53,916 nucleotides of DNA from Fidelibacterota bacterium (GTDB taxonomy: Bacteria > Fidelibacterota > SORT01), in the NCBI GenBank assembly GCA_022571215.1, contig JACZYG010000016.1:1-53916 (forward strand), in the 5' to 3' direction. A program made the translations under genes and the position numbers. Below the pieces are notes generated by a model. It was not told the DNA's origin, did no database searches, and was given only the letters and a program-made list of their open reading frames with translations. Positions 36,768 to 51,009 of this stretch are shown here, piece after piece (within the stretch, counting starts at the first letter, position 1; every line of letters starts with the position of its first letter).

Positions 36768-36862
36768 TAATATTTTATTTTTTCTTTTCAATTAATTTTA
36801 CGTCATCAAATCAAGATGGTTTCTGAGAAATATTCATAAAATTGGAAAACAAAATAAATAAC

Positions 36863-36891
36863 TTGACATCCATCCATCATCTCTATATATT
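36863..36891 (+). promoter_or_regulatory. promoter of the aromatic superoperon
   Basis: TTGACA (36863-36868), exactly 17 bp, TATATT (36886-36891), preceded by an A/T-rich stretch like an UP element. The predicted start is at about 36898, only about 4 bases before the leader ATG. Confidence 0.8.
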
Positions 36892-36901
36892 CCTGCCGCT
36901 T

Positions 36902-36979
36902 ATGGATGCACTGACTACATTTAGAAACTTTTACGCTTATTGGTGGTATTATAACCGCGCAGAGGGCGTACTTATGTAG
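36902..36979 (+). CDS. trpL: aromatic amino-acid leader peptide (attenuator)
   Basis: A 25-codon frame, ATG to TAG. Codons 7-17 read F-R-N-F-Y-A-Y-W-W-Y-Y: two Phe (TTT), four Tyr and tandem Trp TGG TGG (36941-36946). It ends 30 bases before a Rho-independent terminator that precedes trpE, and lies just after a consensus promoter. That is the layout of a ribosome-mediated attenuator. The codon set matches the operon, which makes precursors of all three amino acids. There is no room for a Shine-Dalgarno site, so it would be translated from a nearly leaderless mRNA, as known for trpL of Sinorhizobium and some actinobacteria. The symbol trpL is used for convenience. Confidence 0.82.
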   Translation: MDALTTFRNFYAYWWYYNRAEGVLM

Positions 36980-37009
36980 CCAGCACCATATAAAAAATCA
37001 GTATACTCG

Positions 37010-37040
37010 CCTGCCAATTGAAAACTCGGCAGGTTTTTTT
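37010..37040 (+). terminator. attenuator terminator upstream of trpE
   Basis: Stem CCTGCC (37010-37015)/GGCAGG (37028-37033), 12-base loop, then seven T (37034-37040), ending 22 bases before the trpE ATG. A competing antiterminator is possible: GCA and GGCG of leader codons 20-23 (36959-36961, 36965-36968) can pair with CGCCTGC (37008-37014), which includes the 5' half of the stem. Confidence 0.82.
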
Positions 37041-37062
37041 AATTTTAAAATTTAGGATTTGT

Positions 37063-38577
37063 ATGAATACTACCACATTCGATGAGTTTATAAAGCTTTG
37101 CCAAACTAAACCTAAGGGAAAATCAGGGCTTATTGTCCCAATCTATCGTAAAGTTCTTGCAGACCTGATCACACCGGTCAATGCATATTTAAGGATTCGT
37201 AATTCGTCAGTTTACTCATTTTTGCTTGAAAGCGTCGAGGGCGAAGAACGGTTTGCCCGTTATTCCTTTCTTGGTTTCGGACCGTCTGAACTTCTGACAC
37301 TGAGTAACAATAGAGTTACACTCACTATGTCCGGAGTTGTAAATGAATTTACAGGGAACGGCATAGACCAGCTTCGTGAAATTATATCAAAATACGATTC
37401 GGTTGATCTTCCCGAACTACCTCCTTTTACCGGAGGAGCAGTTGGATATATTTCCTACGATGCGGTGAGACAGTTCTTTAATCTTAACGAAAGTTCACAT
37501 CACGATTCCGACAAGAATCAGCCACCCGAGCTGCAGTTTGCGTTTTACAGAACCATAATGGCGTTCGATCATTTCAAGCATCAAGCGATACTAATCAGCA
37601 ATGTTTTTCTTGATTCCAACGAGCTCAAGAATATGAACGCGACCGTTCTTAAAGAAAAATATGAATCAGCAATTAAAAATATCAGCTCTCTTGAATCTAT
37701 TATTAATAAACCGGTCGAACACAAGCCTGATCCGATAAAGCATGATGACTATAAGGAAAGCTTCGATAAAAAGAGTTATCTTGAAGCGGTTCTGAAAGCT
37801 AAAGAACATATAGTTGAAGGTGACGCGTTTCAGATAGTTCTATCCCGTAGAGAGGAAATCACAAACCATCCCGAACCGTTCGAGATATATAGAGCCCTGC
37901 GAACAATAAATCCCTCTCCATATCTTTTTTATCTCGAAATGGATGGACAGACTATTGCAGGCTCCTCCCCCGAGATGCTCGTAAAGGTTGAAAACAGGAA
38001 GGTCCAGGTAAGACCCATCGCAGGCACACGACCGAGAGGTTCCACCGGAGCCGAAGACGAAGCGTTAGAAACGGAACTCAGAAAAGACGAAAAGGAACGG
38101 GCTGAACATGCCATGTTAGTTGACCTTGGAAGGAATGACCTTGGGAAGGTATCCAAATATGGAACGGTAAAAGTTTCTGAGTTGATGGTTGTTGAAAAAT
38201 ACTCTCACGTCATGCACTTAGTAAGTCGGGTCACAGGCGAACTTTCTGATGATAAGGATTGTCTTGATGCGTTGACGGCCACATTTCCGGCCGGAACCGT
38301 TACCGGCGCTCCAAAGAAGCGGGCGATGGAGATAATAGATGAACTCGAACCGGTCAAAAGAGGCATTTATGCCGGAGCCGTCGGTTATCTGGACTACAAG
38401 GGAAATCTCGATACATGCATTGCCATTAGGACCATAACGTTCAAAGACGGCAAGGCGAGTATTCAGGCAGGAGCCGGCATCGTCTATGATTCCGTACCGG
38501 AAAACGAATATGATGAGTGCGGGAACAAAGCAAAAGTTCTCAAAGAAGCTATTTCAATGGCTGCGAAAGGATTATAA
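37063..38577 (+). CDS. trpE: anthranilate synthase component I
   Basis: The start is placed at the ATG at 37063, preceded by TTAGGA; an earlier in-frame TTG would fall inside the terminator hairpin. The 504-residue enzyme converts chorismate and ammonia (from TrpG) to anthranilate. The feedback-inhibition motif LLES (about residues 53-56) is intact, so tryptophan inhibition is expected. The chorismate-binding domain has SPEMLVKVENRKVQVRPIAGT, the ATFPAGTVTGAPKKRAME block and the closing GAGIVYDSVPENEYDEC. First structural gene of the 14-kb operon, regulated by the upstream attenuator and separated by one base from trpG. Confidence 0.97.
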   Translation: MNTTTFDEFIKLCQTKPKGKSGLIVPIYRKVLADLITPVNAYLRIRNSSVYSFLLESVEGEERFARYSFLGFGPSELLTLSNNRVTLTMSGVVNEFTGNGIDQLREIISKYDSVDLPELPPFTGGAVGYISYDAVRQFFNLNESSHHDSDKNQPPELQFAFYRTIMAFDHFKHQAILISNVFLDSNELKNMNATVLKEKYESAIKNISSLESIINKPVEHKPDPIKHDDYKESFDKKSYLEAVLKAKEHIVEGDAFQIVLSRREEITNHPEPFEIYRALRTINPSPYLFYLEMDGQTIAGSSPEMLVKVENRKVQVRPIAGTRPRGSTGAEDEALETELRKDEKERAEHAMLVDLGRNDLGKVSKYGTVKVSELMVVEKYSHVMHLVSRVTGELSDDKDCLDALTATFPAGTVTGAPKKRAMEIIDELEPVKRGIYAGAVGYLDYKGNLDTCIAIRTITFKDGKASIQAGAGIVYDSVPENEYDECGNKAKVLKEAISMAAKGL

Positions 38578-38578
38578 A

Positions 38579-39166
38579 TTGATAGTGGTCATAGATAACT
38601 ATGATTCGTTTACCTATAACCTTGTTCAGTACTTCGGTGAACTCGGCTCCGAGATAAAAGTATTTCTGAATGATGAAATAAAAGTCGAAGAGATCGATCA
38701 ACTGAATCCGGAAGCCCTTATAATCTCACCCGGACCGGGAAGACCGCAAGATGCCGGAATCTCAATGGATGCCATAAGAAAGCTCGGGCCTAAAATCCCT
38801 ACGCTCGGAATCTGTCTTGGTCATCAATGTATCGGCGAAATCTATGGAGGCAGAGTGACCCACGCAAAAGAGATTCTTCATGGCAAAACATCGCTTATAA
38901 GGCATAATGGGCATCCGTTGTTTGACCGAGTTTCTAATCCCTTCAAAGCCACAAGGTATCACAGTCTGATTGTTGAGGAATCGAATCTGCCTGAGGAACT
39001 CGTCCCGATAGCAACTGCGGAAGACGGAACTCTCATGGCGATCGCTCATAAAGAATACCCGATATTCGGATTACAGTTCCATCCGGAATCTATCTTTACG
39101 AATGTCGGAATGCATATTCTTGATAACTTTCTTAAAATCGCCTCAACTACTGATTCGAGATTATGA
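38579..39166 (+). CDS. trpG: anthranilate synthase component II (glutamine amidotransferase)
   Basis: I start at TTG 38579, one base after the trpE stop, because the family N-terminus is MIVVIDNYDSFTYNLVQY; a longer frame from 38486 would read through the end of trpE. The 195 residues are of normal length. The class-I amidotransferase triad is present: Cys in LGICLGHQCIGE (near residue 78) and His-Glu in LQFHPESI (near 168-170). It supplies ammonia to TrpE. It lacks fusion to TrpD. Stop overlaps the trpD ATG by 4 bp. Confidence 0.95.
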   Translation: MIVVIDNYDSFTYNLVQYFGELGSEIKVFLNDEIKVEEIDQLNPEALIISPGPGRPQDAGISMDAIRKLGPKIPTLGICLGHQCIGEIYGGRVTHAKEILHGKTSLIRHNGHPLFDRVSNPFKATRYHSLIVEESNLPEELVPIATAEDGTLMAIAHKEYPIFGLQFHPESIFTNVGMHILDNFLKIASTTDSRL

Positions 39167-40182
39167 TGTTACAGACCTATCTCTCCAAACTAATTGAAGG
39201 CGATTCTCTGACCAGAAACGAAGCAACTGAGGCTATGGATTCTATAATGAGCGGTGATACGCCTGCCACTCAAATCGCGGCGTTTCTCGTCGCCATGCGA
39301 ATGAAAGGAGAAAACTCCGAAGAAGTCACCGGATTTGTAGAATCGATGCGTTCAAATGCCACTCCTATTAATACAGATGCCGAATCGTTGCTCGACATGT
39401 GTGGAACGGGCGGGGACGGCGCGGGGACGTTCAATATTTCCACGATAGCGTCTATCGTAGCTGCCGCCGGAGGAATCAGCGTTGCCAAGCACGGTAACAG
39501 GGCGGTCTCCTCAAAATGCGGCTCGGCTGATTTGTTCAACGCGCTTGGAGTCAATATAGAGATGCCTGTCGAACGGCTCGGCGATTGTCTTAACGAAACC
39601 GGATACGCGTTTCTATTTGCTCCGTTGCTCCATCCAGCCATGAAACATGCTATAGCTCCCCGCAGAGAATTAAAGATAAGAACCGTATTCAATTTGCTCG
39701 GACCGATGACGAATCCCGCAAGCCCTACCTTACAACTTTTGGGTGTTTATGATTTTGAACTGGCTGAACTCGTTGCGGAAGTGTTACGGAACATAGGCGT
39801 TAAAAGAGCTCTCGTGGTTCATGGTTCAGATGGGTTGGATGAGATCACCCTTACGGGAAAAACAATGTGTGTTGAATTAGACGGGGACAATATAAGTAGA
39901 TTAGATCTCACCCCCGGATCATTCGGACTGCCGCAACTTTCAACAGTTGATATTTCGGGAGAGTTCGAGCCGGATGAATGCGCGCTGATCGCCACCAATA
40001 TCCTTTCAGGTGAAAAAGGACCCAAGAGAGACATCGTCGTAGCGAATTCTGCTGTCGGTCTTTATTTAGGCGGAAAAGAAGATTCTATTGAAAAGGCGGC
40101 GCGGTTAGCGGAGGAGCTGTTAGACAGCGGAAAGGCTTTGGAGCTGCTTGAAAATTTCAGCGGGTTTACGAACAGAGCATGA
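39163..40182 (+). CDS. trpD: anthranilate phosphoribosyltransferase
   Basis: A 339-residue class-III phosphoribosyltransferase joining anthranilate to PRPP. The glycine loop CGTGGDGAGTFNIST begins near residue 80, and KHGNRAVSSKCGSAD (anthranilate and PRPP contacts) lies near 109. The DGLDEITLTG element near 225 carries the Asp-Glu pair that binds Mg. Its ATG overlaps trpG and its stop overlaps trpC, each by 4 bp. Confidence 0.97.
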   Translation: MMLQTYLSKLIEGDSLTRNEATEAMDSIMSGDTPATQIAAFLVAMRMKGENSEEVTGFVESMRSNATPINTDAESLLDMCGTGGDGAGTFNISTIASIVAAAGGISVAKHGNRAVSSKCGSADLFNALGVNIEMPVERLGDCLNETGYAFLFAPLLHPAMKHAIAPRRELKIRTVFNLLGPMTNPASPTLQLLGVYDFELAELVAEVLRNIGVKRALVVHGSDGLDEITLTGKTMCVELDGDNISRLDLTPGSFGLPQLSTVDISGEFEPDECALIATNILSGEKGPKRDIVVANSAVGLYLGGKEDSIEKAARLAEELLDSGKALELLENFSGFTNRA

Positions 40183-40976
40183 ACAGGTTAGACAAAATCG
40201 TAACTCATAGGATAGAGGCTATCGCTCGAAGGATAAAGGATAAATCCGTTCTGAAGATTCGGACTGACGCGGAATCAATGCCCCCTGTTCTCGACTTCAG
40301 AAAATCGCTTATCTCAACTAACGGTGAAACACGAATTATATCAGAAGTGAAAAAAACTTCACCGACCGCCGACTTCGGGGGCAAATCCTTAGACGCTGTC
40401 CGTATAGCTCTCGCGTATGAATCAGCCGGCGCATCCTCAATCTCCGTTCTGACAGAACCTGAATTCTTCTCAGGCTCCATGGAGGACCTTCTGAACATAA
40501 AAAAATCCGTCCGCATACCGATCCTTTGTAAAGATTTTATTATAGACCCGTTCCAAATTTACGAAGCGCGCGCGGCAGGAGCGGACGCGATCCTTCTCAT
40601 AGCGGCAATATTAGACCCTTATGAGCTGAAAGATTTTATCTCTATATGCCGTCTTGTCGGTATCGTGCCGTTTGTTGAGATCACTGACGAGTCCGACGCG
40701 GAAAACGCCTTGAACAATGACCTTGACCTTATCGGAATCAATTGCAGAAATCTGAAAACCTTTGAGCTCGACCGTTCAGTTTTTAAAGAGCTTTCCGCGA
40801 ATATCCCTAAAAGCATTTTGATAATCGCTGAAAGCGGCATCAACGGCAAAGAGGACCTGTCATATATTAATGAACTCGGAATCTACTCAGCCCTTATAGG
40901 CTCGCTCTTTATGAAAACGGACGATCCCGGAGAGGCTCTACGCGGATTGCTAAGTGAGAATCATGACCGAAATTAA
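40179..40976 (+). CDS. trpC: indole-3-glycerol phosphate synthase
   Basis: A 265-residue (beta/alpha)8 enzyme turning CdRP into indole-3-glycerol phosphate. The first catalytic lysine lies in SEVKKTSPTADFGG (near residue 56; SP is followed by Thr where Ser is more usual), the second in ILCKDFIIDPFQIYEARAAGADAILLI, then GINCRNLKTFELD and IIAESGI with the catalytic Glu and Asn. It is not fused to TrpF. It ends 14 bases inside trpF. Confidence 0.96.
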   Translation: MNRLDKIVTHRIEAIARRIKDKSVLKIRTDAESMPPVLDFRKSLISTNGETRIISEVKKTSPTADFGGKSLDAVRIALAYESAGASSISVLTEPEFFSGSMEDLLNIKKSVRIPILCKDFIIDPFQIYEARAAGADAILLIAAILDPYELKDFISICRLVGIVPFVEITDESDAENALNNDLDLIGINCRNLKTFELDRSVFKELSANIPKSILIIAESGINGKEDLSYINELGIYSALIGSLFMKTDDPGEALRGLLSENHDRN

Positions 40977-41586
40977 AATTTGCGGCATCACCACTCCTGC
41001 CGACGCGCTGCTCGCCTGTGAATATGGAGCAAAAATGATAGGGATGATATTCTACCGTAAAAGTCCTCGTTTTATCTCAAACAATGCCGCTGAAAAAATT
41101 GTTCAGGTTCTGCCGGAAACCGTTCTTCCGGTTGGAGTTTTTGTGAATCCTACGGTAGAAGAGATCAGTTCGGCAATTGACGCCACCGGAATCAGGGCTT
41201 TGCAAATTCACGCTGATCTTGTCATCGAGGAGTTTGGTAAACTGGATCTGCCAATAATCCGGGCATACTCGATAAGCGCTGAAAACGATTTTGATTCCGT
41301 CAGGGGAAACGGCTCGGACTATTTTCTCCTTGATAATAAAGAGCTCAACAGCTACGGCGGAACAGGCAAGAGATTCGATTGGGAGATCATACCGTCCGGT
41401 TTAAGGAGAGACCGGATGATACTCGCGGGTGGCATCAATGCCGAAAACGTCTCCGTGGCTATCTCAACTGTCAAGCCGGCTTTTCTCGACATATCAAGCG
41501 GGGTGGAATCCTCACCGGGAATTAAGGATAAAATGAAATTAGAACAACTCTTCAATGCGGTGGAAAGAGCAAATAGTGGACTTTAA
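40963..41586 (+). CDS. trpF: phosphoribosylanthranilate isomerase
   Basis: The start is at the ATG at 40963 ([15 protein letters not shown]), where family proteins begin, rather than the GTG nine bases before. The 207-residue barrel has the catalytic Cys of KICGI and Asp in the FLLDNKE segment, and [10 protein letters not shown] after strand 2. It isomerises phosphoribosylanthranilate to CdRP between the TrpD and TrpC steps. Gene overlaps are 14 bp with trpC and 11 bp with trpB. Confidence 0.95.
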
Positions 41587-42769
41587 AAACTATAACTTGC
41601 CAGACGAATCAGGTCATTTCGGTGATTACGGAGGAAGTTTCGTTCCGGAAACACTTGTGCCTGCTCTCAACGAACTTGAAAGCGCATTCAGAACCGCATG
41701 GGTTGATGAGGATTTTCAATCTGAATTCGATCATCTATTGAAAAATTATTCCGGGCGACCCACGCCGCTCTACTTTGCGGATAAACTCAGTTCTATGTTA
41801 GGCGGGGCGAAAATATACCTGAAGCGTGAAGACCTCGGACATACCGGTTCGCACAAGATAAATAACACAATCGGTCAAGCTCTGCTTGCGATGAGGATGG
41901 GCAAAAAACGAATCATAGCAGAGACCGGCGCGGGTCAGCACGGACTTGCCGTGGCTACAGTCGCCGCAAAATTCGGATTGAACGCCGTAGTGTACATGGG
42001 TCGCGAAGATACCCTGCGTCAGTCTCTTAACGTTCGAAAGATGGAGCTGCTTGGCGCGGAGGTCATTCCTGTCGACTCGGGAAGTAAGACTTTGAAAGAT
42101 GCCATCAACGAGGCGATTCGGGACTGGGTCACAAATGTCGAGGATTCTTTTTATATGATCGGTTCGGTTGTGGGTCCTCACCCCTACCCTCTTATGGTTC
42201 GTAACTTTCAACGGATAATAGGACTCGAAGCGAAGAAACAATTTGAAGAGATCGAATCTGCTATTCCGGCTGCGCTTGTGGCTTGTGTCGGCGGCGGCAG
42301 TAATTCGATTGGATTATTCCATCCGTTTCTATCAACTGACACGGAAATGTACGGCGTTGAAGGCGGAGGCAAGAATTTAGAGTTGGGAAACCACTCGGCT
42401 ACCCTCTCCGAAGGCTCGCCTGGAATCCTGCACGGAAGCCTCTCGTACATTCTTCAGGATTCAAACGGTCAGATTTCCCCTGCGGATTCAGTCGCGCCCG
42501 GATTGGATTATCCGGGTTCGGGACCGGAGCATTCTTACTTGAAAGATTGCGGCAGAATACAGTACTCCTCAGTCAGCGACGCGGAAGCGCTTGCGGCATT
42601 TAAACATCTTTCAAGAACAGAAGGCATCATTCCCGCTATCGAGTCGTCACATGCCATCGCCAAGGTTATGCAAATAGCCGCCGACTATAAAAAGAGCGAT
42701 GGTATCATCGTCTGTTTATCGGGCAGAGGCGATAAGGATTTTTCAAAAGAGGTTTCTGATGGAGAATAG
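41576..42769 (+). CDS. trpB: tryptophan synthase beta chain
   Basis: PLP-dependent enzyme joining indole and serine. I favour GTG 41576 (reading [20 protein letters not shown]), with GGAAAGAG upstream; an ATG at 41555 would add seven residues and extend the overlap with trpF. The product has 397 residues. Blocks: [14 protein letters not shown], the Schiff-base lysine in [10 protein letters not shown] (near residue 94), [16 protein letters not shown], and the phosphate loop [10 protein letters not shown]. This is the TrpB1-type partner of TrpA. Stop overlaps trpA by 11 bp. Confidence 0.96.
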
Positions 42770-43553
42770 ACTCACAGCCCTTTCTCAAAACAGTGATATG
42801 GCCGATGGCACTCTTCTGGTCCCTTATATGGTTGCGGGATATCCCACGCTTGAAAGGTCGCTTGAGGCGTTTGAACTCTTCGCAGAGGAGGGAGCTGATC
42901 TGATTGAAATAGGCATCCCGTTTTCCGATCCGTTAGCGGACGGCGTGGTCATTCAAGAAGCATCGAATCGATCTCTGAATAACGGCACCGACCTTGACGA
43001 TATATTTAGCTTGGTCAAGTCGCTTAGAAAAGTTCATGAAGTTCCGCTCGTATTGATGGGATACACCAATCCTGTCTATAAAAGGGGAATATCAAAGTTT
43101 TTTTCAGAATGCGCCGAAGCAGGAGTTGACGGCGTAATCATACCCGATCTCGCTCCGCAGGAATCGGAAGAATATCTGAAATCCGCGAGGGAAAACAACA
43201 TAAGTGTCATTTTCCTCGTTGCGCCGAATACAACAGACGAAAGGATCAAGCTGATCGCTGAACTCTCCACCGAATTCATTTACTGTGTCTCGGTTTTCGG
43301 CGTCACCGGGCAACAAATTAATCTGCCGGAGGACTTAAAGGAATATTTGGAGAGAGTGAAACGGCTGTCCCGTAGAAAAATATTAGTGGGATTCGGAATT
43401 AATTCAAAAGAGTCGGCTCTTAAACTTGCGCCGTATTCCGACGGCATAGTCATCGGCAGCGCCTTCGTAAAGTTATTAAGCAGTGATGATGACAACTCCA
43501 TAAACGAGTTAAGGTCATTTTTTAGGGATATTAGACAATCACTCCGTAAGTGA
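42759..43553 (+). CDS. trpA: tryptophan synthase alpha chain
   Basis: A 264-residue TIM barrel cleaving indole-3-glycerol phosphate; indole is channelled to TrpB. I take ATG 42759 (MENRLTALS), inside the end of trpB. The catalytic Glu and Asp lie in [19 protein letters not shown] (near residues 49-62); [11 protein letters not shown] and VSVFGVTGQ are the other family blocks, and [25 protein letters not shown] binds the phosphate. A 5-base gap separates it from the chorismate mutase gene, so the transcription unit continues. Confidence 0.96.
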
Positions 43554-43558
43554 GATAA

Positions 43559-43873
43559 ATGATGGAACGGATTAAAGAAATAAGGAATGCGATCGATTCA
43601 ATTGACGCCGATCTCTTAAAACTCCTCAACGATAGAGCTCAATTGGCGATTGAATTAGGAAAACTCAAAAATGATCTTGGGTTAGCGATATACGACCCTG
43701 TGAGGGAAAGGGAAATCATTGACATGATGCTCGATGAGAATGAGGGACCGTTAGATGATAAAGCGGTTGTAGGTCTCTTTCAACGGATAATTGATGAATC
43801 ACGAAGAGTAGAGAAATTCTCAGTATCAGCCCCAAAAAAGACCACAGAAAATAAAAAAAGAGAATTTAAATGA
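43559..43873 (+). CDS. chorismate mutase (AroQ class)
   Basis: A 104-residue all-helical chorismate mutase of the AroQ class, a monofunctional form. The catalytic pattern is visible: Arg in IRNAIDSIDADLLKLLNDRAQ, the Lys in ELGKLKN, Arg-Glu in YDPVREREI and Gln near LFQRIIDESRRVE. It converts chorismate to prephenate at the Tyr/Phe branch. It is not fused to prephenate dehydratase or DAHP synthase, but overlaps the DAHP synthase gene by 4 bp; such pairs can form regulatory complexes. The last 15 residues are lysine-rich and probably flexible. Confidence 0.93.
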   Translation: MMERIKEIRNAIDSIDADLLKLLNDRAQLAIELGKLKNDLGLAIYDPVREREIIDMMLDENEGPLDDKAVVGLFQRIIDESRRVEKFSVSAPKKTTENKKREFK

Positions 43874-44886
43874 TTATAGTAATGGAATTAGGTACAAAAG
43901 AGAGTGATATTCAGGCGGTTATATCCAAAATAACCGGAATGGGTCTCGATATTCACCGTTCTGACGGAGTTGCTCAGGTTGTTATAGGAGCGATCGGGCT
44001 GACAGGCGAAGTAGAACTCAATGATTTCAAAATGATGCAAGGGGTCAGTAACGTAGTTCGTATATCTGAACCTTATAAACGGGCAAGCAGGGCGATGCAT
44101 CCGGAAAAAACCATCTTCAGCGTCCGTGGAATAGAGATAGGCGGTGAAAAGGTAGTTGTTATGGCGGGACCGTGTTCGGTTGAATCGAAAGAACACATTA
44201 TGAGAATGGCTGAAATAGTCAGTAAGGCGGGAGCGAAATTCCTTAGAGGCGGCGCATACAAACCGAGAACATCGCCTTACTCCTTTCAGGGACTTGGAGA
44301 AGAGGGTCTGATATACATGCGTGAAGCGGCTGACATGTATGATATGGCTGTAGTGACCGAGATTATGGATCCGAATCTGATTCCTTTGATGTCTGATTAC
44401 ACGGACATATTTCAAGTAGGTACCCGTAATATGCAGAACTATCAGCTGCTTAAGGAACTGGGTAAATCAAGAGTGCCTGTTCTTCTTAAAAGAGGACTAT
44501 CGGCGACCATAGAGGAATGGCTCATGTCAGCTGAATATATTATGGCGGGAGGAAATAAAAATGTTATTCTGTGCGAACGAGGTATTCGTACATTCGAAGG
44601 GTATACTCGAAATACATTTGATGTCTCCGCTATACCTGTTGTGCAAGGTTTAAGCCATCTTCCCATCATTGCGGATCCGAGTCACGCAACGGGGATAAGA
44701 GATAAGGTCAGCCCGGTCGCAAGAGCCTCCGTCGCCGCCGGCGCCGACGGTATGATAATAGAGGTACATGATAACCCGGAAAAAGCGCTTTCAGACGGGG
44801 CGCAATCGCTCTATCCGGAGCAATTTACGACTCTTATGAATGAAGTAAGGATAATTGCCTCTGCTGTCGGCAGAACGATAGACTGA
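43870..44886 (+). CDS. aroF: 3-deoxy-7-phosphoheptulonate synthase (type I-beta)
   Basis: This 338-residue enzyme makes DAHP from PEP and erythrose-4-phosphate, the first shikimate step. Residues 1-70 form a ferredoxin-like regulatory domain of the Thermotoga type ([20 protein letters not shown]). The barrel follows with [48 protein letters not shown] and [11 protein letters not shown]. In Thermotoga the N-terminal domain mediates Tyr/Phe feedback inhibition, so allosteric control is expected here beside the attenuator. Stop and tyrA start share one base (TGATG). Confidence 0.96.
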
Positions 44887-45731
44887 TGTACAAAAATATT
44901 TCCATTATAGGAACTGGTCTGATTGGAGGTTCTTTAGCGTTATTGCTCAAAAAGGTTCTTCCTGATATCAGACTGATTGCAGTTGACCTGCCTCCTGTTA
45001 TCCAAAATTTGCCCGAAAATTCTCCATTTGACGACCTATTTGAAACCAATGATATTTCAGAAGCTGTAAAGGATTCAGACCTTATATTTCTTGGTCTTCC
45101 AATATCGGGTATAATCAACATCCTCCCCCGGGTGATGTCCGATTCCAAAGATGGCGCGGTGATATGTGATTTAGGGAGCGCAAACGCAGCTATATTAAAA
45201 GAAGCGGAGAAAAATTTAATTCCCGGAAAATATTTTATCGGCGGTCATCCGATAGGCGGCTCTGAAGGAAAAGGTTTTAGTGACGCTTCAGCCGATTATC
45301 TTGACGGGGTTAAATTTTTACTATCTCCAGCTTCAAACGTTCCTGAGGATGTCATAACAAAGCACTCCGATTTTTTGACAAAATTGAATTTCGAAGTTAG
45401 TGTTATAGAATCGGTGATTCATGATCGTATCGTTGCTTATACCAGCCATCTCCCTCAATTTATCTCCACTGCCCTCGCTCTTGCCATAGGACAGATAGAT
45501 AATACGAAAGAGACTATGGGTCGAGGGATGTACACAATGACGCGCCTTGCGTCAAGCCCTCCTGAGATGTGGAACGATATTATCCGTTTTAATAATAAAG
45601 AAATAAGAGAGGCGATCTCAGTATTTACCTCTGTTCTATCAGATATTGAAAAAGATATATTAGATGGCTCGATCAGCGAAAAATTCAACAGCGCGGCTAA
45701 ATTGAAGAAAAAAATCAGAGGTGAAAGTTAG
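44886..45731 (+). CDS. tyrA: prephenate/arogenate dehydrogenase
   Basis: A 281-residue NAD(P)-dependent dehydrogenase with Rossmann motif SIIGTGLIGGSLALLLKK at the N-terminus, followed by DLIFLGLPISG and the catalytic-site GGHPIGGSEGKGF (His). The helical dimerisation domain holds SHLPQFISTALA. It oxidatively decarboxylates prephenate to 4-hydroxyphenylpyruvate (or arogenate to Tyr). No ACT domain is attached. The size is that of monofunctional TyrA. Start and stop overlap both neighbours by one base. Confidence 0.94.
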   Translation: MYKNISIIGTGLIGGSLALLLKKVLPDIRLIAVDLPPVIQNLPENSPFDDLFETNDISEAVKDSDLIFLGLPISGIINILPRVMSDSKDGAVICDLGSANAAILKEAEKNLIPGKYFIGGHPIGGSEGKGFSDASADYLDGVKFLLSPASNVPEDVITKHSDFLTKLNFEVSVIESVIHDRIVAYTSHLPQFISTALALAIGQIDNTKETMGRGMYTMTRLASSPPEMWNDIIRFNNKEIREAISVFTSVLSDIEKDILDGSISEKFNSAAKLKKKIRGES

Positions 45732-47017
45732 TGGATCGATTCGTCCATCCGGTCAATAAATTTTCCGGAGAGATTTCCATGCCGGGAGATAAATCGATAT
45801 GGCACCGCGCATTGATCATCAGCGCCATCGCAAACGGAGAGACGGAGATAACCGGTAATCCTGCCGGTCTTGATGTTGAATCAACGAAGCGGTGCTTACT
45901 CGATTTAGGAGTGTCCATCTCTTCTTCGGACGGAAAAACCATGGTGAACGGAAACGGATTCAATGGAATGAGAAAACCTGAGAATGCGCTCGATGTCGGA
46001 AACTCAGGTTCGACTATCCGGTTGTTGTCGGGAGTTCTGTCAGCCCAAAAATTTGAAACTCTGATAGACGGTGACTCATCCATACGGAAACGCCCAATGA
46101 ATCGGATCGTCACACCTCTTTCCCAGATGGGCGCTCATATATCTTCCGCTCCTTCGGGAGGCTGCCCGCTGGGAATCAAAGGGAATCCTGATTTGAACTC
46201 TATTACGTATGATATGCCTGTAGCGAGCGCGCAAGTCAAATCGGCAATTCTTCTCGCGGGTGTCACTGCCGGAGTTAGCGTAACACTGTCGGAGCCGCAT
46301 TCTTCCCGCGACCATACCGAAATTATGCTCAGACGATGCGGGGCGATCGTTGAAAAAGACAACAACAAAATCAGATTAGACCCTTGCCCGGAATTGACCG
46401 CGACCAATTTCAATATTCCCGGTGATTTCTCCTCCGCGGCGTATTTTATAGCGGCGGCGATTTTAATTGAGGGCAGCGATTTATTAATAAAAGATGTGGG
46501 ACTTAATCCTACCCGGATAGGATTCCTGAATGTCGTTAAGGAAATGGGGGCTGCCGTTGAAATCCATAATTCGAGAGAGGAATCCGGTGAGATCAGAGGC
46601 GACATTTCTGTAAAACATTCTAAACTAAATGCCGTGTCCATAACGGCAGAGACCGTTCCATCCATTATTGATGAACTTCCGCTCATATCCGTCTTAGGAG
46701 CGAAAGCGGAAGGCATAACTACCGTTTCCGGCGCGGGAGAACTGCGGGTTAAGGAATCCGACCGGATTTCGCTGCTCATAAAAGGTCTTCGCTCAATAGG
46801 CATAGAAGCTGAGGAATTTGAAGACGGCTTCTCCGTTCGGGGAAATCAATCAATTATTGGCGGGGAGACAGATACAGGTGGAGATCACAGAATGGTCATG
46901 ACCTTCGCTATTGCAGCTCTCGCGTCAAAAAACGGCATAACTGTTCGAGACGCCGAATCTTCTTCCGTGTCATATCCATCGTTTTTCAACGAATTAGACG
47001 AACTCGGTTCAAATTGA
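45731..47017 (+). CDS. aroA: 3-phosphoshikimate 1-carboxyvinyltransferase (EPSP synthase)
   Basis: A 428-residue enzyme starting at GTG, sharing its first base with the tyrA stop. It condenses shikimate-3-phosphate and PEP. Key blocks are GNSGSTIRLLSG, DGDSSIRKRPMNR, PVASAQVKSAILLAG, the ELRVKESDRI motif and GDHRMVMTFAIAALAS. The N-terminal substrate loop is PGDKSIWHRALII: Lys21, Ser22 and Arg26 are kept, but the second Ser of the usual KSxSxR is Trp24 (TGG at 45800-45802). The GNSG loop lacks the Gly-to-Ala change known in glyphosate-insensitive enzymes, so sensitivity cannot be judged. Confidence 0.96.
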   Translation: MDRFVHPVNKFSGEISMPGDKSIWHRALIISAIANGETEITGNPAGLDVESTKRCLLDLGVSISSSDGKTMVNGNGFNGMRKPENALDVGNSGSTIRLLSGVLSAQKFETLIDGDSSIRKRPMNRIVTPLSQMGAHISSAPSGGCPLGIKGNPDLNSITYDMPVASAQVKSAILLAGVTAGVSVTLSEPHSSRDHTEIMLRRCGAIVEKDNNKIRLDPCPELTATNFNIPGDFSSAAYFIAAAILIEGSDLLIKDVGLNPTRIGFLNVVKEMGAAVEIHNSREESGEIRGDISVKHSKLNAVSITAETVPSIIDELPLISVLGAKAEGITTVSGAGELRVKESDRISLLIKGLRSIGIEAEEFEDGFSVRGNQSIIGGETDTGGDHRMVMTFAIAALASKNGITVRDAESSSVSYPSFFNELDELGSN

Positions 47018-47024
47018 ACAGATA

Positions 47025-47843
47025 ATGAAATTCGGTATACTGAAATATTCAGATCGGAAATCGCTTTCCCCCGTGTTGCATACATATTTCATGGAACGGT
47101 TAGGCATCGACGGTGAATTCAAGACCTTCTCCGTTCCTCCTGATGAATTGGAAACATTTATTCTGAAAAGTCGCGACGATTCCCTTGACGGCTTTAATGT
47201 GACCACGCCGCACAAGGAGAAGATTATCCAATATCTGGACGAATTGACGCCTGAAGCAGAAGCGGTAGGCGCGGTAAACACGGTCGCTGTCCGTAAGGAT
47301 AAACTGATCGGTCACAACACCGACATAATCGGTTTCCGAAAAGCTTTGAACGAATTAGGCGAAATTGTCGAGAGGAAAGAAGTTCTCCTGTTCGGCGCGG
47401 GAGGCGCAGCCAGAGCCGTTGTATATTCACTCAGCGCAATGGACGTTTCTGTCATATATGTAGTGAATCGGACAATGAAGCACGCTGAATCGCTCGAAGA
47501 AGTTATTCAGGACGGCAAGAGAACCAAACTAATTGTGATCAAAGATTTAGATTCGCTATCGGAGGAAATCAAGTTGGCTATAAACTCTCTTAGCCATGGA
47601 GTCTTTCGACCTGAACTACTGACTAACCTTCCCGATTTGAAACTCCTTTACGATTTGAATTATGGCGCAAACGCTCTCGACCCATCAATTTTAAACGGTT
47701 CATACCGGTATTCAGAGGGAATGAGCATGTTGGTACATCAGGGCTTTGAATCACTGAAATTTTGGATGCAAAAAGATTTGCCCGATGACGGGTTAACTGA
47801 TTCCGCAATTAGAAAATTACACGGAGTAATTGAAAGTGAGTAA
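47025..47843 (+). CDS. aroE: shikimate dehydrogenase
   Basis: A 272-residue NADP-dependent reductase of 3-dehydroshikimate. Substrate-binding segments are SLSPVLHTYF, GFNVTTPHKE (catalytic Lys) and GAVNTVAVRKDKLIGHNTD (catalytic Asp), with the dinucleotide fold LLFGAGGAARAVVYSL and the VNRT phosphate loop. The N-terminal ILKYSDRKSL is more charged than the common GxPIxHS start, but alignment holds. It starts 7 bases after aroA and overlaps aroC by 8 bp. Confidence 0.94.
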   Translation: MKFGILKYSDRKSLSPVLHTYFMERLGIDGEFKTFSVPPDELETFILKSRDDSLDGFNVTTPHKEKIIQYLDELTPEAEAVGAVNTVAVRKDKLIGHNTDIIGFRKALNELGEIVERKEVLLFGAGGAARAVVYSLSAMDVSVIYVVNRTMKHAESLEEVIQDGKRTKLIVIKDLDSLSEEIKLAINSLSHGVFRPELLTNLPDLKLLYDLNYGANALDPSILNGSYRYSEGMSMLVHQGFESLKFWMQKDLPDDGLTDSAIRKLHGVIESE

Positions 47844-48978
47844 TATCAGATTTCTTACAGCCGGTGAATCCCACGGCAAAAGATTGGTGGGGATTATCGA
47901 GGGTATTCCCGCCGGATTGAAAATATTGGTGAAGGATATTAACAAAGATCTCGCCCGCCGGCAGCTCGGATACGGCAGAGGCGGAAGAATGAAAATAGAA
48001 AAAGACCGCGCCGAAATTATATCAGGCGTGCGAAACGGGCTTTCGATGGGCAGTCCTATATCGCTTACGATTGAAAATAAGGATTGGGAGAATTGGAAAG
48101 AGATAATGGCTTCCGAAGTGATGCCTTCCGTTCCCGAAGCTGTCACCATACCCAGACCGGGACACGCGGACCTTGCCGGGCATTATAAATACGGACACGA
48201 CGACCTGAGAAATGTCATTGAACGTTCCAGCGCGAGAGAAACCGCCATGCGCGTCGCTCTCGGCGCGATAGCCAAACTGCTGCTGAAAGAATGCGGAATA
48301 TCTATCGGGAGCCATGTCCTCAGTATAAATCAGGCGTTCCTCTCCTCCCGCGATGAGGAGCTTTCGGCAATCACCATCAATAAACTCGCTGACAGCTCCC
48401 GCGTTCGTTGCATCGAAAAGGAATCTTCGGAACGAATGGTCAACGCAATCAAAGAAGCTGTAACTAAAAAAGACACGGTAGGAGGAGTATTCGAAGTCAT
48501 AGCCGACGGCCTGATGCCCGGATTGGGCAGTTATGTTCATTGGGACAGGAAACTCGACGGAAAACTCGCTCAATCAGTGATGAGCATACCGGCTATTAAA
48601 GGTGTTGAAATCGGACCGGCATTCGATAATGCCGCGCTCTTCGGCTCGCAGGTTCATGATGAAATACTACCGGAAAACGGAACGTATATCCGAACCTCCA
48701 ACAGAGCCGGCGGACTCGAAGGCGGAGTCACGAACGGAAAACCGATTGTCGTTAGAGCGGCAATGAAACCTATCTCTACGTTAAGGCAACCGCTGAAATC
48801 CGTTGATCTTGCGACCGGTAAAGAAGTCGATTCACGATACGAACGTTCAGACGTGTGCGCAGTCCCCGCTGCCGCGGTAATCGGCGAATCGATGGTCGCT
48901 CTAACTCTCGCCGATGCTTTATTAGAAAAATTCGGCGGCGATTCAATGAAGGAATTGCTCTCCCGTGTCAAGAGCTGA
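47836..48978 (+). CDS. aroC: chorismate synthase
   Basis: Start taken at GTG 47836 (MSNIRFLTAGESHGKRL) with GGAG upstream; a TTG two codons earlier is possible. The 380-residue FMN-dependent enzyme eliminates phosphate from EPSP to give chorismate. Blocks: RRQLGYGRGGRMKIEKD, RPGHADLAGHYKYGHDDLRNVIERSSARETA and, near the end, RSDVCAVPAAAVIGESM. Last common-pathway step; product feeds TrpE and the chorismate mutase of the same operon. Overlaps the next gene by 14 bp. Confidence 0.96.
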   Translation: MSNIRFLTAGESHGKRLVGIIEGIPAGLKILVKDINKDLARRQLGYGRGGRMKIEKDRAEIISGVRNGLSMGSPISLTIENKDWENWKEIMASEVMPSVPEAVTIPRPGHADLAGHYKYGHDDLRNVIERSSARETAMRVALGAIAKLLLKECGISIGSHVLSINQAFLSSRDEELSAITINKLADSSRVRCIEKESSERMVNAIKEAVTKKDTVGGVFEVIADGLMPGLGSYVHWDRKLDGKLAQSVMSIPAIKGVEIGPAFDNAALFGSQVHDEILPENGTYIRTSNRAGGLEGGVTNGKPIVVRAAMKPISTLRQPLKSVDLATGKEVDSRYERSDVCAVPAAAVIGESMVALTLADALLEKFGGDSMKELLSRVKS

Positions 48979-50584
48979 CAACATATTCTTAGTAGGTTTC
49001 ATGGGAGTGGGCAAAAGCGCGGCAGGTAAATTACTCGCCGAAAAACTTGAACATGATTTTTTTGAGACCGATTCTCTTGTGGAAAAAACCGCCGATAAAG
49101 ACATCAATCAGATTTTTAAAGATTCAGGTGAATCTGTTTTTAGGGCGGTTGAAACTACCGTTCTTAAAAAAGTGAGTATAGAGCGTAACGCCGTAATATC
49201 TTGCGGCGGCGGAATAATATTGCGTGAGGAGAACAGAAAGATAATGTCCGAATCCGGAACCACTGTTTTTCTGAACGCCTCACCCGAGACACTTCTGTCC
49301 CGTCTGATCGAATCCAAAAACAGTAGACCTTTATTAGATGGACTTTCTGACCCGGAAAAACTCGACAGGATAAACGGGATGCTCGCGGAGCGGATTCCGC
49401 TCTACCGGAGAAGTGATCTTATGATAAACACAGATGATAAACCGACTGAAACCGTTGTGGAGGAAATTATCGAGAGGCTGACCGACTTTCCGGCACAGGT
49501 GAAAGTTAAACTCGGGGAGCGGTCATACCCGATTCATATCGGAAGAGGCATCTCCTCAAAAATCGGTACTGTTGTTTCCAACCTGAATTTCGGTAAGAAG
49601 ATAGGCATTGTTACCGACGAAAACGTATCCAAACTGCATCTCGACACTATAGCCGATAACCTTTCCAGCGCGGGATTCGAGGTTTTGAATGTGAAGATTC
49701 CGGCGGGTGAATCCTCTAAATCTCTTGTTGTCATATCAACTCTTTATGATAAATTTTTAGAAGGACATTTTGAAAGGAATTCCACCATTATAGCGCTTGG
49801 AGGCGGAGTTGTGGGGGATGTTACCGGATTTGTCGCGGCTACGCTCCTAAGAGGAATAAACTTTGTGCAGGTTCCCACTACACTGTTGGCGCAGGTAGAT
49901 TCGAGTGTCGGCGGTAAGGTGGGGATCAATCACCGATTGGGTAAAAACTTGATCGGTTCCTTTTATCAGCCGAACGCGGTCATCATCGACACCGAATTTC
50001 TTTCTACCCTTCCCCGAAAAGAGCTGATGTGCGGCATGGCGGAGGTGATTAAATACGGATTGATTCTCGATAGCGGCTTCGCAAAACACATTTCAACCAA
50101 CTTTTCAAAGATCATTGTACTGAATGACCCTGATTTGACCCTGAATCTTATTAAACGGTGTGTCGAACTGAAGGCTGAAGTGGTAGCAAAGGATGAGCAG
50201 GAAAATGGATTACGGCGAATTCTTAACTTCGGTCACACTTTCGGGCATTCCGTAGAGGCTATCCTGCCACGAGGAAGCATTACGCACGGAGAAGCCGTTG
50301 CGTTCGGAATGAGAGCCGCCATCCGGCTTTCGGAATTGCTTGAACTCCTTTCAAAAGACCAATCGGAAGAAGCATTGAAATTGGTGGAAAATATACCTAT
50401 TGACAGGTCAATTAAGGAACTGACCGTCAGCGACATGATGGACGCCATGAATTCCGACAAAAAAGTCAAGGACGGCGAGATTCATTTTGTACTTCTTGAT
50501 AAGATCGGAAACGCCGTTATCAGATCCGGAATAGAAAACAGACTTATCAAAGAATCAATAATATTTTCGCAGGAATCAATATGA
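48965..50584 (+). CDS. aroKB: fused shikimate kinase / 3-dehydroquinate synthase
   Basis: One 539-residue chain carrying two steps. Residues 1-170 are shikimate kinase: P-loop GFMGVGKSAAGK, FFETDSLVE (the FxDxD position reads ETD), GESVFRAVE, SCGGGIILRE and the lid arginine in NSRPLLDG. Residues about 178-530 are 3-dehydroquinate synthase: VTDENVSKLHLD, ALGGGVVGDVTGFVAAT, TTLLAQVDSSVGGKVGINH, and metal ligands in GMAEVIKYG and GHTFGHSVEA. AroK-AroB fusions are known elsewhere (Thermotoga). These are non-consecutive steps (5 and 2). GTG start inside the end of aroC; overlaps aroQ by 4 bp. Confidence 0.95.
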   Translation: MSRADNIFLVGFMGVGKSAAGKLLAEKLEHDFFETDSLVEKTADKDINQIFKDSGESVFRAVETTVLKKVSIERNAVISCGGGIILREENRKIMSESGTTVFLNASPETLLSRLIESKNSRPLLDGLSDPEKLDRINGMLAERIPLYRRSDLMINTDDKPTETVVEEIIERLTDFPAQVKVKLGERSYPIHIGRGISSKIGTVVSNLNFGKKIGIVTDENVSKLHLDTIADNLSSAGFEVLNVKIPAGESSKSLVVISTLYDKFLEGHFERNSTIIALGGGVVGDVTGFVAATLLRGINFVQVPTTLLAQVDSSVGGKVGINHRLGKNLIGSFYQPNAVIIDTEFLSTLPRKELMCGMAEVIKYGLILDSGFAKHISTNFSKIIVLNDPDLTLNLIKRCVELKAEVVAKDEQENGLRRILNFGHTFGHSVEAILPRGSITHGEAVAFGMRAAIRLSELLELLSKDQSEEALKLVENIPIDRSIKELTVSDMMDAMNSDKKVKDGEIHFVLLDKIGNAVIRSGIENRLIKESIIFSQESI

Positions 50585-51009
50585 AAAGGATTGTTATTAT
50601 CAACGGCCCGAATCTTAATCTACTTGGCGAGCGTGAACCCGAAATTTACGGTTCACAAACATTAGAAGAACTAAACCGTGAGATCGAAGAATACGCTGAA
50701 GGCAAGGATCTGAAATTGGAATTTTACCAGTCTAATCATGAAGGTGAGATCATTGATCTGCTTCATAGGTTTAGAAAAGATTGTGACGCGTTTATACTTA
50801 ATCCGGGGGCTTATACGCATTATTCATACGCCATACGCGATGCGGTGGCGGCTGTCTCCCCTCCCGTGGTGGAAGTTCATCTCAGCGACATCCGATCAAG
50901 AGAAGAGTTCAGGAAAATCTCGGTTATAGAACCGGTCGCCGCAAAACAATTCTCGGGCGAAGGTACGGGCAGTTATCTGAAAGCTATCGATTTCATTCTA
51001 TCTTTATAG
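50581..51009 (+). CDS. aroQ: 3-dehydroquinate dehydratase, type II
   Basis: A 142-residue type II dehydroquinase, normal length. Conserved: IINGPNLNLLGEREPEIYG (lid residues, catalytic Tyr and Arg), YQSNHEGEIIDLLH, NPGAYTHYSYAIRDA and VEVHLSDIRSREEFRK with the catalytic His. The Ala-Ile-Arg-Asp segment replaces the common VALRDA but keeps Arg. Last gene of the superoperon; completes the pathway from DAHP to shikimate together with aroB and aroE. Confidence 0.96.
   Translation: MKRIVIINGPNLNLLGEREPEIYGSQTLEELNREIEEYAEGKDLKLEFYQSNHEGEIIDLLHRFRKDCDAFILNPGAYTHYSYAIRDAVAAVSPPVVEVHLSDIRSREEFRKISVIEPVAAKQFSGEGTGSYLKAIDFILSL

Follow-up and report, generated by a model that had tools for sequence, protein, structure and literature searches.

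A leader peptide with Phe, Tyr and Trp codons as a probable multi-input attenuator of the combined trp-aro operon in Marinimicrobia

The 25-codon open reading frame (plus stop) that precedes a combined trp-aro operon on the window examined (i.e., the whole stretch of 53,916 nucleotides) very probably encodes a leader peptide through which a ribosome-mediated transcription attenuator reads several amino acid inputs. Codons 7-17 of this frame are F R N F Y A Y W W Y Y; translation thus reproduces exactly the frame described in an earlier note on this DNA, with eight aromatic codons out of eleven. The features of the region, all on the forward strand, are as follows.

36863-36891 (+): promoter, TTGACA-17-TATATT, 11 out of 12 consensus positions, with the elements and their distance kept throughout the five genomes of the family of the window (f1)
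36902-36979 (+): leader peptide ORF, MDALTTFRNFYAYWWYYNRAEGVLM*, from translation of the window and comparison of the family genomes
36920-36949 (+): predicted sensing zone, codons 7-16 (F7, F10, Y11, Y13, W14, W15, Y16), in which a stalled ribosome would free segment 2, from stall-position folding
36959-36971 (+): segment 2, GCAGAGGGCGTAC, within codons 20-24 of the leader and predicted 5' arm of the antiterminator, from folding and comparison
37001-37014 (+): segment 3 side of the predicted antiterminator, GTATACTCGCCTGC, overlapping the 5' arm of the terminator, from folding and comparison
37009-37040 (+): intrinsic terminator, GCCTGCC-N12-GGCAGGT followed by T7, segments 3 and 4, with the stem kept in all five f1 genomes
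37063-43553 (+): trpE, trpG, trpD, trpC, trpF, trpB and trpA
43559-51009 (+): chorismate mutase, DAHP synthase, tyrA, aroA, aroE, aroC, aroKB and aroQ, without prephenate dehydratase

The frame and the promoter match are directly observed. The promoter is of the sigma-70 type (TTGACA at 36863-36868, a 17-nt spacer and TATATT at 36886-36891), and both it and the terminator, which the earlier note had mentioned, could be located. The -10 hexamer lies 10 nt from the leader ATG and no Shine-Dalgarno sequence is present, which makes the ORF near-leaderless. A -10 element ca. 8-10 nt upstream of the leader ATG also occurs in genomes of families f1, f5, f9, f14, f16 and f18, and a Shine-Dalgarno sequence, looked for in 53 leaders, was not seen in 52 of them. 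Together these two features suggest that the leader peptide is probably translated from a leaderless or near-leaderless mRNA. The trp leaders of f29 apparently have a longer 5' UTR.

Among the ORFs of up to 60 codons in the 53.9-kb window, this leader is the only one with at least eight aromatic codons in eleven and a Trp codon, and dinucleotide shuffling of the complete window, repeated 30 times, produced no comparable frame. A chance ORF in an AT-rich region, without regulatory role and near an ordinary terminator, is a negligible alternative: when the surrounding AT-rich stretch of 601 bases was shuffled 3000 times, three of the shuffled sequences did contain a comparable frame, but the frame is conserved throughout the phylum and correlates with operon content. 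Conservation, with the promoter, ATG, WWYY, stop position and terminator kept in all five genomes of f1, can be regarded as stronger evidence for the leader frame than the shuffle statistics.

The operon, likewise observed directly, comprises 15 genes on one strand, from trpE at 37063 to 51009, including those with the domains of chorismate mutase (PF01817), DAHP synthase (PF00793) and the tyrA prephenate dehydrogenase (PF02153). By gene content, the description in the earlier note of an operon that makes chorismate for all three aromatic amino acids and carries enzymes of the Trp and Tyr branches was accurate. The nearest named relative of the window genome is Candidatus Marinimicrobia bacterium MT.SAG.3 (TrpE 87% identical). 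The aroKB gene (48965-50584) is a fusion of shikimate kinase with 3-dehydroquinate synthase, which is found in f1, f5 and f29; the two genes are separate in most other families.

As in known attenuators, an ORF rich in codons for the products of the operon lies between the promoter and the first gene, and a terminator lies between this ORF and trpE. A standard terminator scan missed this hairpin because its 12-nt loop exceeds the limit of 8 nt. Folding and comparison furthermore predict an antiterminator for which segment 3 is needed just as it is for the terminator, so that the two structures would be mutually exclusive; a ribosome stalled at the regulatory codons would allow this antiterminator to form. 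For these computations the A-site was placed at codon i and bases were masked to 10, 13 or 16 nt past its start, with footprint and energy parameters borrowed from other bacteria. The core antiterminator pairs (GCAG:CTGC) of the window have a probability of about 0.04 with the A-site at codons 1-6 vs. 0.92-0.98 at codons 8-15 (13 nt footprint), and in the folding the antiterminator cannot form once the ribosome passes W15/Y16. The computed sensing zone coincides with the aromatic run of the leader. Its edges (F7 and Y16) shift by about one codon with the assumed footprint; F10, Y11, Y13 and W14 fall within it at all three footprints, W15 at two of the three and F7 only at the longest. In the sibling genome G197 the predicted zone covers ca. 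codons 11-15, which hold Y Y W W. The computed sequestration of segment 3 drops just past the last aromatic codons in nearly all families, and over 52 leaders the start of segment 2 lies at a median distance of 14 nt (quartiles 12-18) from where the last Trp codon begins, roughly as far as a stalled ribosome would extend. The energies of the full antiterminator (-10.8 kcal/mol) and the terminator (about -11 kcal/mol) in the family of the window are similar. Super-attenuation, i.e., termination when the leader is not translated, would require a 1:2 hairpin; folding predicts one in the window genome and in G197, not in G195.

In the proposed mechanism, RNA polymerase would start a few bases upstream of the leader ATG, and a shortage of charged Trp, Tyr or Phe tRNA would cause the ribosome to stall within codons ca. 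7-16. The stalled ribosome would melt the upstream hairpin of the coding region and leave segment 2 free to pair with segment 3, by which the terminator would be prevented and read-through into the operon would follow. If all three charged tRNAs were plentiful, the ribosome would reach the stop codon (36977-36979) and cover segment 2, and the terminator would form; if translation never started, the leader would fold on itself and termination would again be expected.

The pairing of segments 2 and 3 is also reflected in the comparison between families. Segment 2 of a family pairs better with its own segment 3 than with those of other families (only 7 out of 20,000 permutations were as good), and in f16/f18 the antiterminator is 93% paired vs. 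29-45% when slid, with five double changes, which argues that segments 2 and 3 have co-evolved. In f1 taken by itself, covariation is weak, with five sequences and one double change, and too thin to count. The energy of the short segment 2:3 duplex was no better than that of shuffled sequences in f1 and was uninformative also for the trp leaders of f29 and, therefore, the longer antiterminator is needed in these cases.

Upstream regions of trpE and the accompanying operons were gathered with TrpE from about 60 genomes of the phylum. In 53 Marinimicrobia genomes from 13 families, trpE is preceded by a candidate leader ORF that is rich in aromatic codons and contains Trp (e.g., MNSFVPTFFYYWWFRSTG, MRNGNEKFNCYYWWFFYGGLRRQP, MNNMNTKYFYSWYWFFNREGVS and MIFNLKKYFFYFWYYNNMGNC); the conserved frame with F/Y/W codons for which the earlier note had proposed a search is, thus, present across the phylum. 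A stricter finder identified a terminator for 52 of the 53 leaders, G157 being the exception. Combined trp-aro operons are represented by 43 leaders from 10 families (ca. 11 of the 43 were classed by family, their contigs ending before the aro genes). These leaders contain aromatic runs, with F, Y and W occurring together in 39 and a mean of 1.8 F, 2.8 Y and 1.9 W in the 11-codon core. The trp-only operons of f4 and f29 (six genomes) have WW or WWW in this core, and none has all three aromatics. The difference (39/43 vs. 0/6) yields a Fisher probability of 1.5e-5 when counted by genome, although the genomes are not independent; at the family level ten combined families stand against two clean trp-only families (f4 and f29), with f24 intermediate. 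Exceptions are G122, G181 and G182, which have trp-only operons, yet kept two or three F/Y codons, and G185, where the operon is interrupted and two or three such codons likewise occur. In G122 and G217 the aro operon begins beyond or close to the end of a contig. In G104 the same operon with identical leaders occurs on two contigs (L189 and L190), representing either a duplication or assembly redundancy.

A leader of the trpL kind that counts only Trp, with the other aromatic residues due to chance or peptide-composition effects, would fit the observation that no position varies less than the Trp codons. It is, nevertheless, very unlikely, since at least three F and Y codons occur in the core of 36 of the 43 combined-operon leaders vs. 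none of the six trp-only leaders of f4/f29, while F and Y make up 3.0% and 2.3%, respectively, of the leader codons outside the core. Moreover, the split tyrA-aro operon of f29 is preceded by a Tyr/Phe leader without Trp. In this family the aro genes stand in a separate operon, whose first gene encodes a chorismate mutase/prephenate dehydrogenase. The leaders of this operon (e.g., MMKRELTYMPINYTLYFTGHIYTGPRIQNQ, MMKREPINMPLNYTTYYYFNGQIEPGPRIRNH and MKTDRKNMTNFFSYYFFSGYNRSGPLILN), located in L252-L258 at about 110-170 bases upstream of the CM/tyrA gene, contain Tyr and Phe and have their own segment 2 (GGTCCGCGGATTC), antiterminator and terminator. G209 and G212 carry both kinds of leaders, i.e., WWW before trp and Tyr/Phe before CM-tyrA-aro. 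Judged from sequence, the split in f29 represents a natural experiment in favor of a match between codon set and operon content; such separate Tyr/Phe leader attenuators are apparently undescribed. With Trp leaders before clean trp-only operons and a Tyr/Phe leader before the split tyrA-aro operon of f29, the codon set follows the products of the operon, and the match with operon content noted earlier for the window holds more widely. We consider it likely that these leaders form one phylum-wide class, in which a single near-leaderless leader integrates the charging of the three aromatic tRNAs for a trp-aro superoperon and in which the codon set splits into Trp-only and Tyr/Phe leaders when the operon splits.

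The codons themselves seem to be under selection. Both Trp codons are invariant within the f16/f18 group, which comprises 13 genomes, among them G182. Three codons before the first Trp, seven of these genomes have Y and six have F; directly after the second Trp, nine have F and four have Y. Synonymous TTT/TTC and TAT/TAC changes occur and flanking codons drift; GGG GTT at the end of the leader is invariant, as segment 2 would require. This pattern indicates that selection acts on the aromatic codons of the leaders. It also bears on a nascent-peptide arrest sensor comparable to TnaC, in which a free aromatic amino acid would be bound in the exit tunnel without counting of tRNAs and for which a short, aromatic-rich peptide before an aromatic operon would be suitable. 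Arrest peptides require fixed residues, however, whereas outside the Trp positions the leader peptide is not conserved between families, its aromatic residues shift place and exchange F for Y, and the distance between the last Trp and the stop codon varies from 18 to 48 nt. Such a sensor is, consequently, highly improbable.

The role of Phe in the family of the window itself requires a more careful assessment. Family f1 consists of five genomes (the window genome G000, G195, G196, G197 and G198), of which G195 belongs to another genus. The promoter, ATG, WWYY, stop position and terminator are kept in all five. Phe codons are found at positions 7 and 10 in the window and at 7 and 11 in G195, and are lacking in the other three. 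Prephenate dehydratase is encoded within the operon in most of the other combined operons examined and outside it in f1, with the copies of G000 and G195 on other contigs; no Phe leader was seen upstream of these two separate genes. Since Phe codons are absent in three out of five genomes and the operon contains no Phe-branch enzyme, Phe is accessory in f1. It is conceivable, although we consider it the less probable reading, that the attenuator in f1 has two inputs, Trp and Tyr, and that the two Phe codons of the window result from incidental Tyr/Phe drift. The siblings G197 and G198 and the relative G196 indeed have no Phe codon in the run, and the operon serves the Tyr branch with prephenate dehydratase located elsewhere. 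Yet F10 falls within the computed sensing zone at all footprints, G195, from another genus, has two Phe codons in the run, and DAHP synthase, chorismate mutase and the shikimate enzymes serve Phe as well; F and Y also interchange in other families, where Phe is kept. Within the attenuator with several inputs, Trp and Tyr would be firm inputs in the window genome and Phe a probable one, as predicted from F10, yet evolutionarily dispensable. The proposed sensor of three tRNA pools thus stands for Trp and Tyr, while Phe is not dependable in f1. That its Phe codons come and go illustrates the limits of reading a single genome.

Leaders in which the codons of several amino acids of a shared pathway are counted are known from ilvGMEDA and thr. 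Both the ilv and thr operons are listed as attenuated (PMC1183508). The principle of multi-amino-acid leaders is already known, and it is the aromatic trio that is unusual. The inputs of ilvGMEDA and thr are branched-chain amino acids or Thr/Ile instead of aromatic ones, and these leaders differ from that of the window in phylum and sequence. The enterobacterial pheL/pheA leader has a run of Phe codons before an aromatic-pathway gene and, unlike the window leader, counts only one amino acid, in a separate operon. In Bacillus subtilis the trp supraoperon resembles the window operon in joining trp with aro and tyrA genes, but is controlled by the TRAP protein instead of by a leader peptide. The attenuation mechanism of the E. 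coli trp operon is summarized in PMC1183508; like trpL, the window leader has a short ORF with tandem Trp codons, predicted mutually exclusive antiterminator and terminator structures, and control that would act from trpE on. It would differ in also reading Tyr and probably Phe, in controlling 15 genes including the whole shikimate pathway and in its near-leaderless start, and it matches no Rfam leader family. The actinobacterial trp attenuators of Corynebacterium and Streptomyces, outside the Proteobacteria, possess a classical leader with double or triple UGG (PMC1262725); these concern only Trp and trp operons, whereas the window leader precedes a trp-aro operon and would have several inputs. 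No Rfam leader or T-box matched the window at the gathering score, the only matches being RNase P and a tRNA, and at E<=10 the region 36800-37100 gave only three matches, all to unrelated families and well short of the respective gathering scores; no amino acid leader or T-box was among them. In open-access papers no description of an F/Y/W leader or study of Marinimicrobia leaders was found.

A survey of 2010 reported no leader-peptide attenuation outside the Proteobacteria and Actinobacteria before its own example from the Firmicutes (PMC2965389). The leaders described here would extend this type of control to a phylum for which hardly any regulatory data exist and would allow end-product control in uncultured Marinimicrobia to be read from sequence. 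They form a natural series of one regulatory device in which the input codons track operon content, and allow direct tests of how attenuators with several inputs originate and divide when operons fuse or split.

A few minor observations can be added. The split aro operon of f4 carries a conserved Phe-rich uORF (MSVPLFNSFT..ECCFLFSVFFPYLF..KGVL; L232, about 1714-1818, and also L234, L235, L250 and L251), whose stop codon overlaps the ATG of the next gene. It may represent a translationally coupled Phe sensor; as it has no terminator, it was not counted as support for attenuation. In four Deltaproteobacteria (including a Smithella and a Syntrophaceae) the trpE leader contains WWWW and no other aromatic run. 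An Acidobacteria contig (L010) carries a candidate YWYW leader about 260 bases upstream of trpE, hinting that leaders with Tyr and Trp may exist outside the Marinimicrobia.
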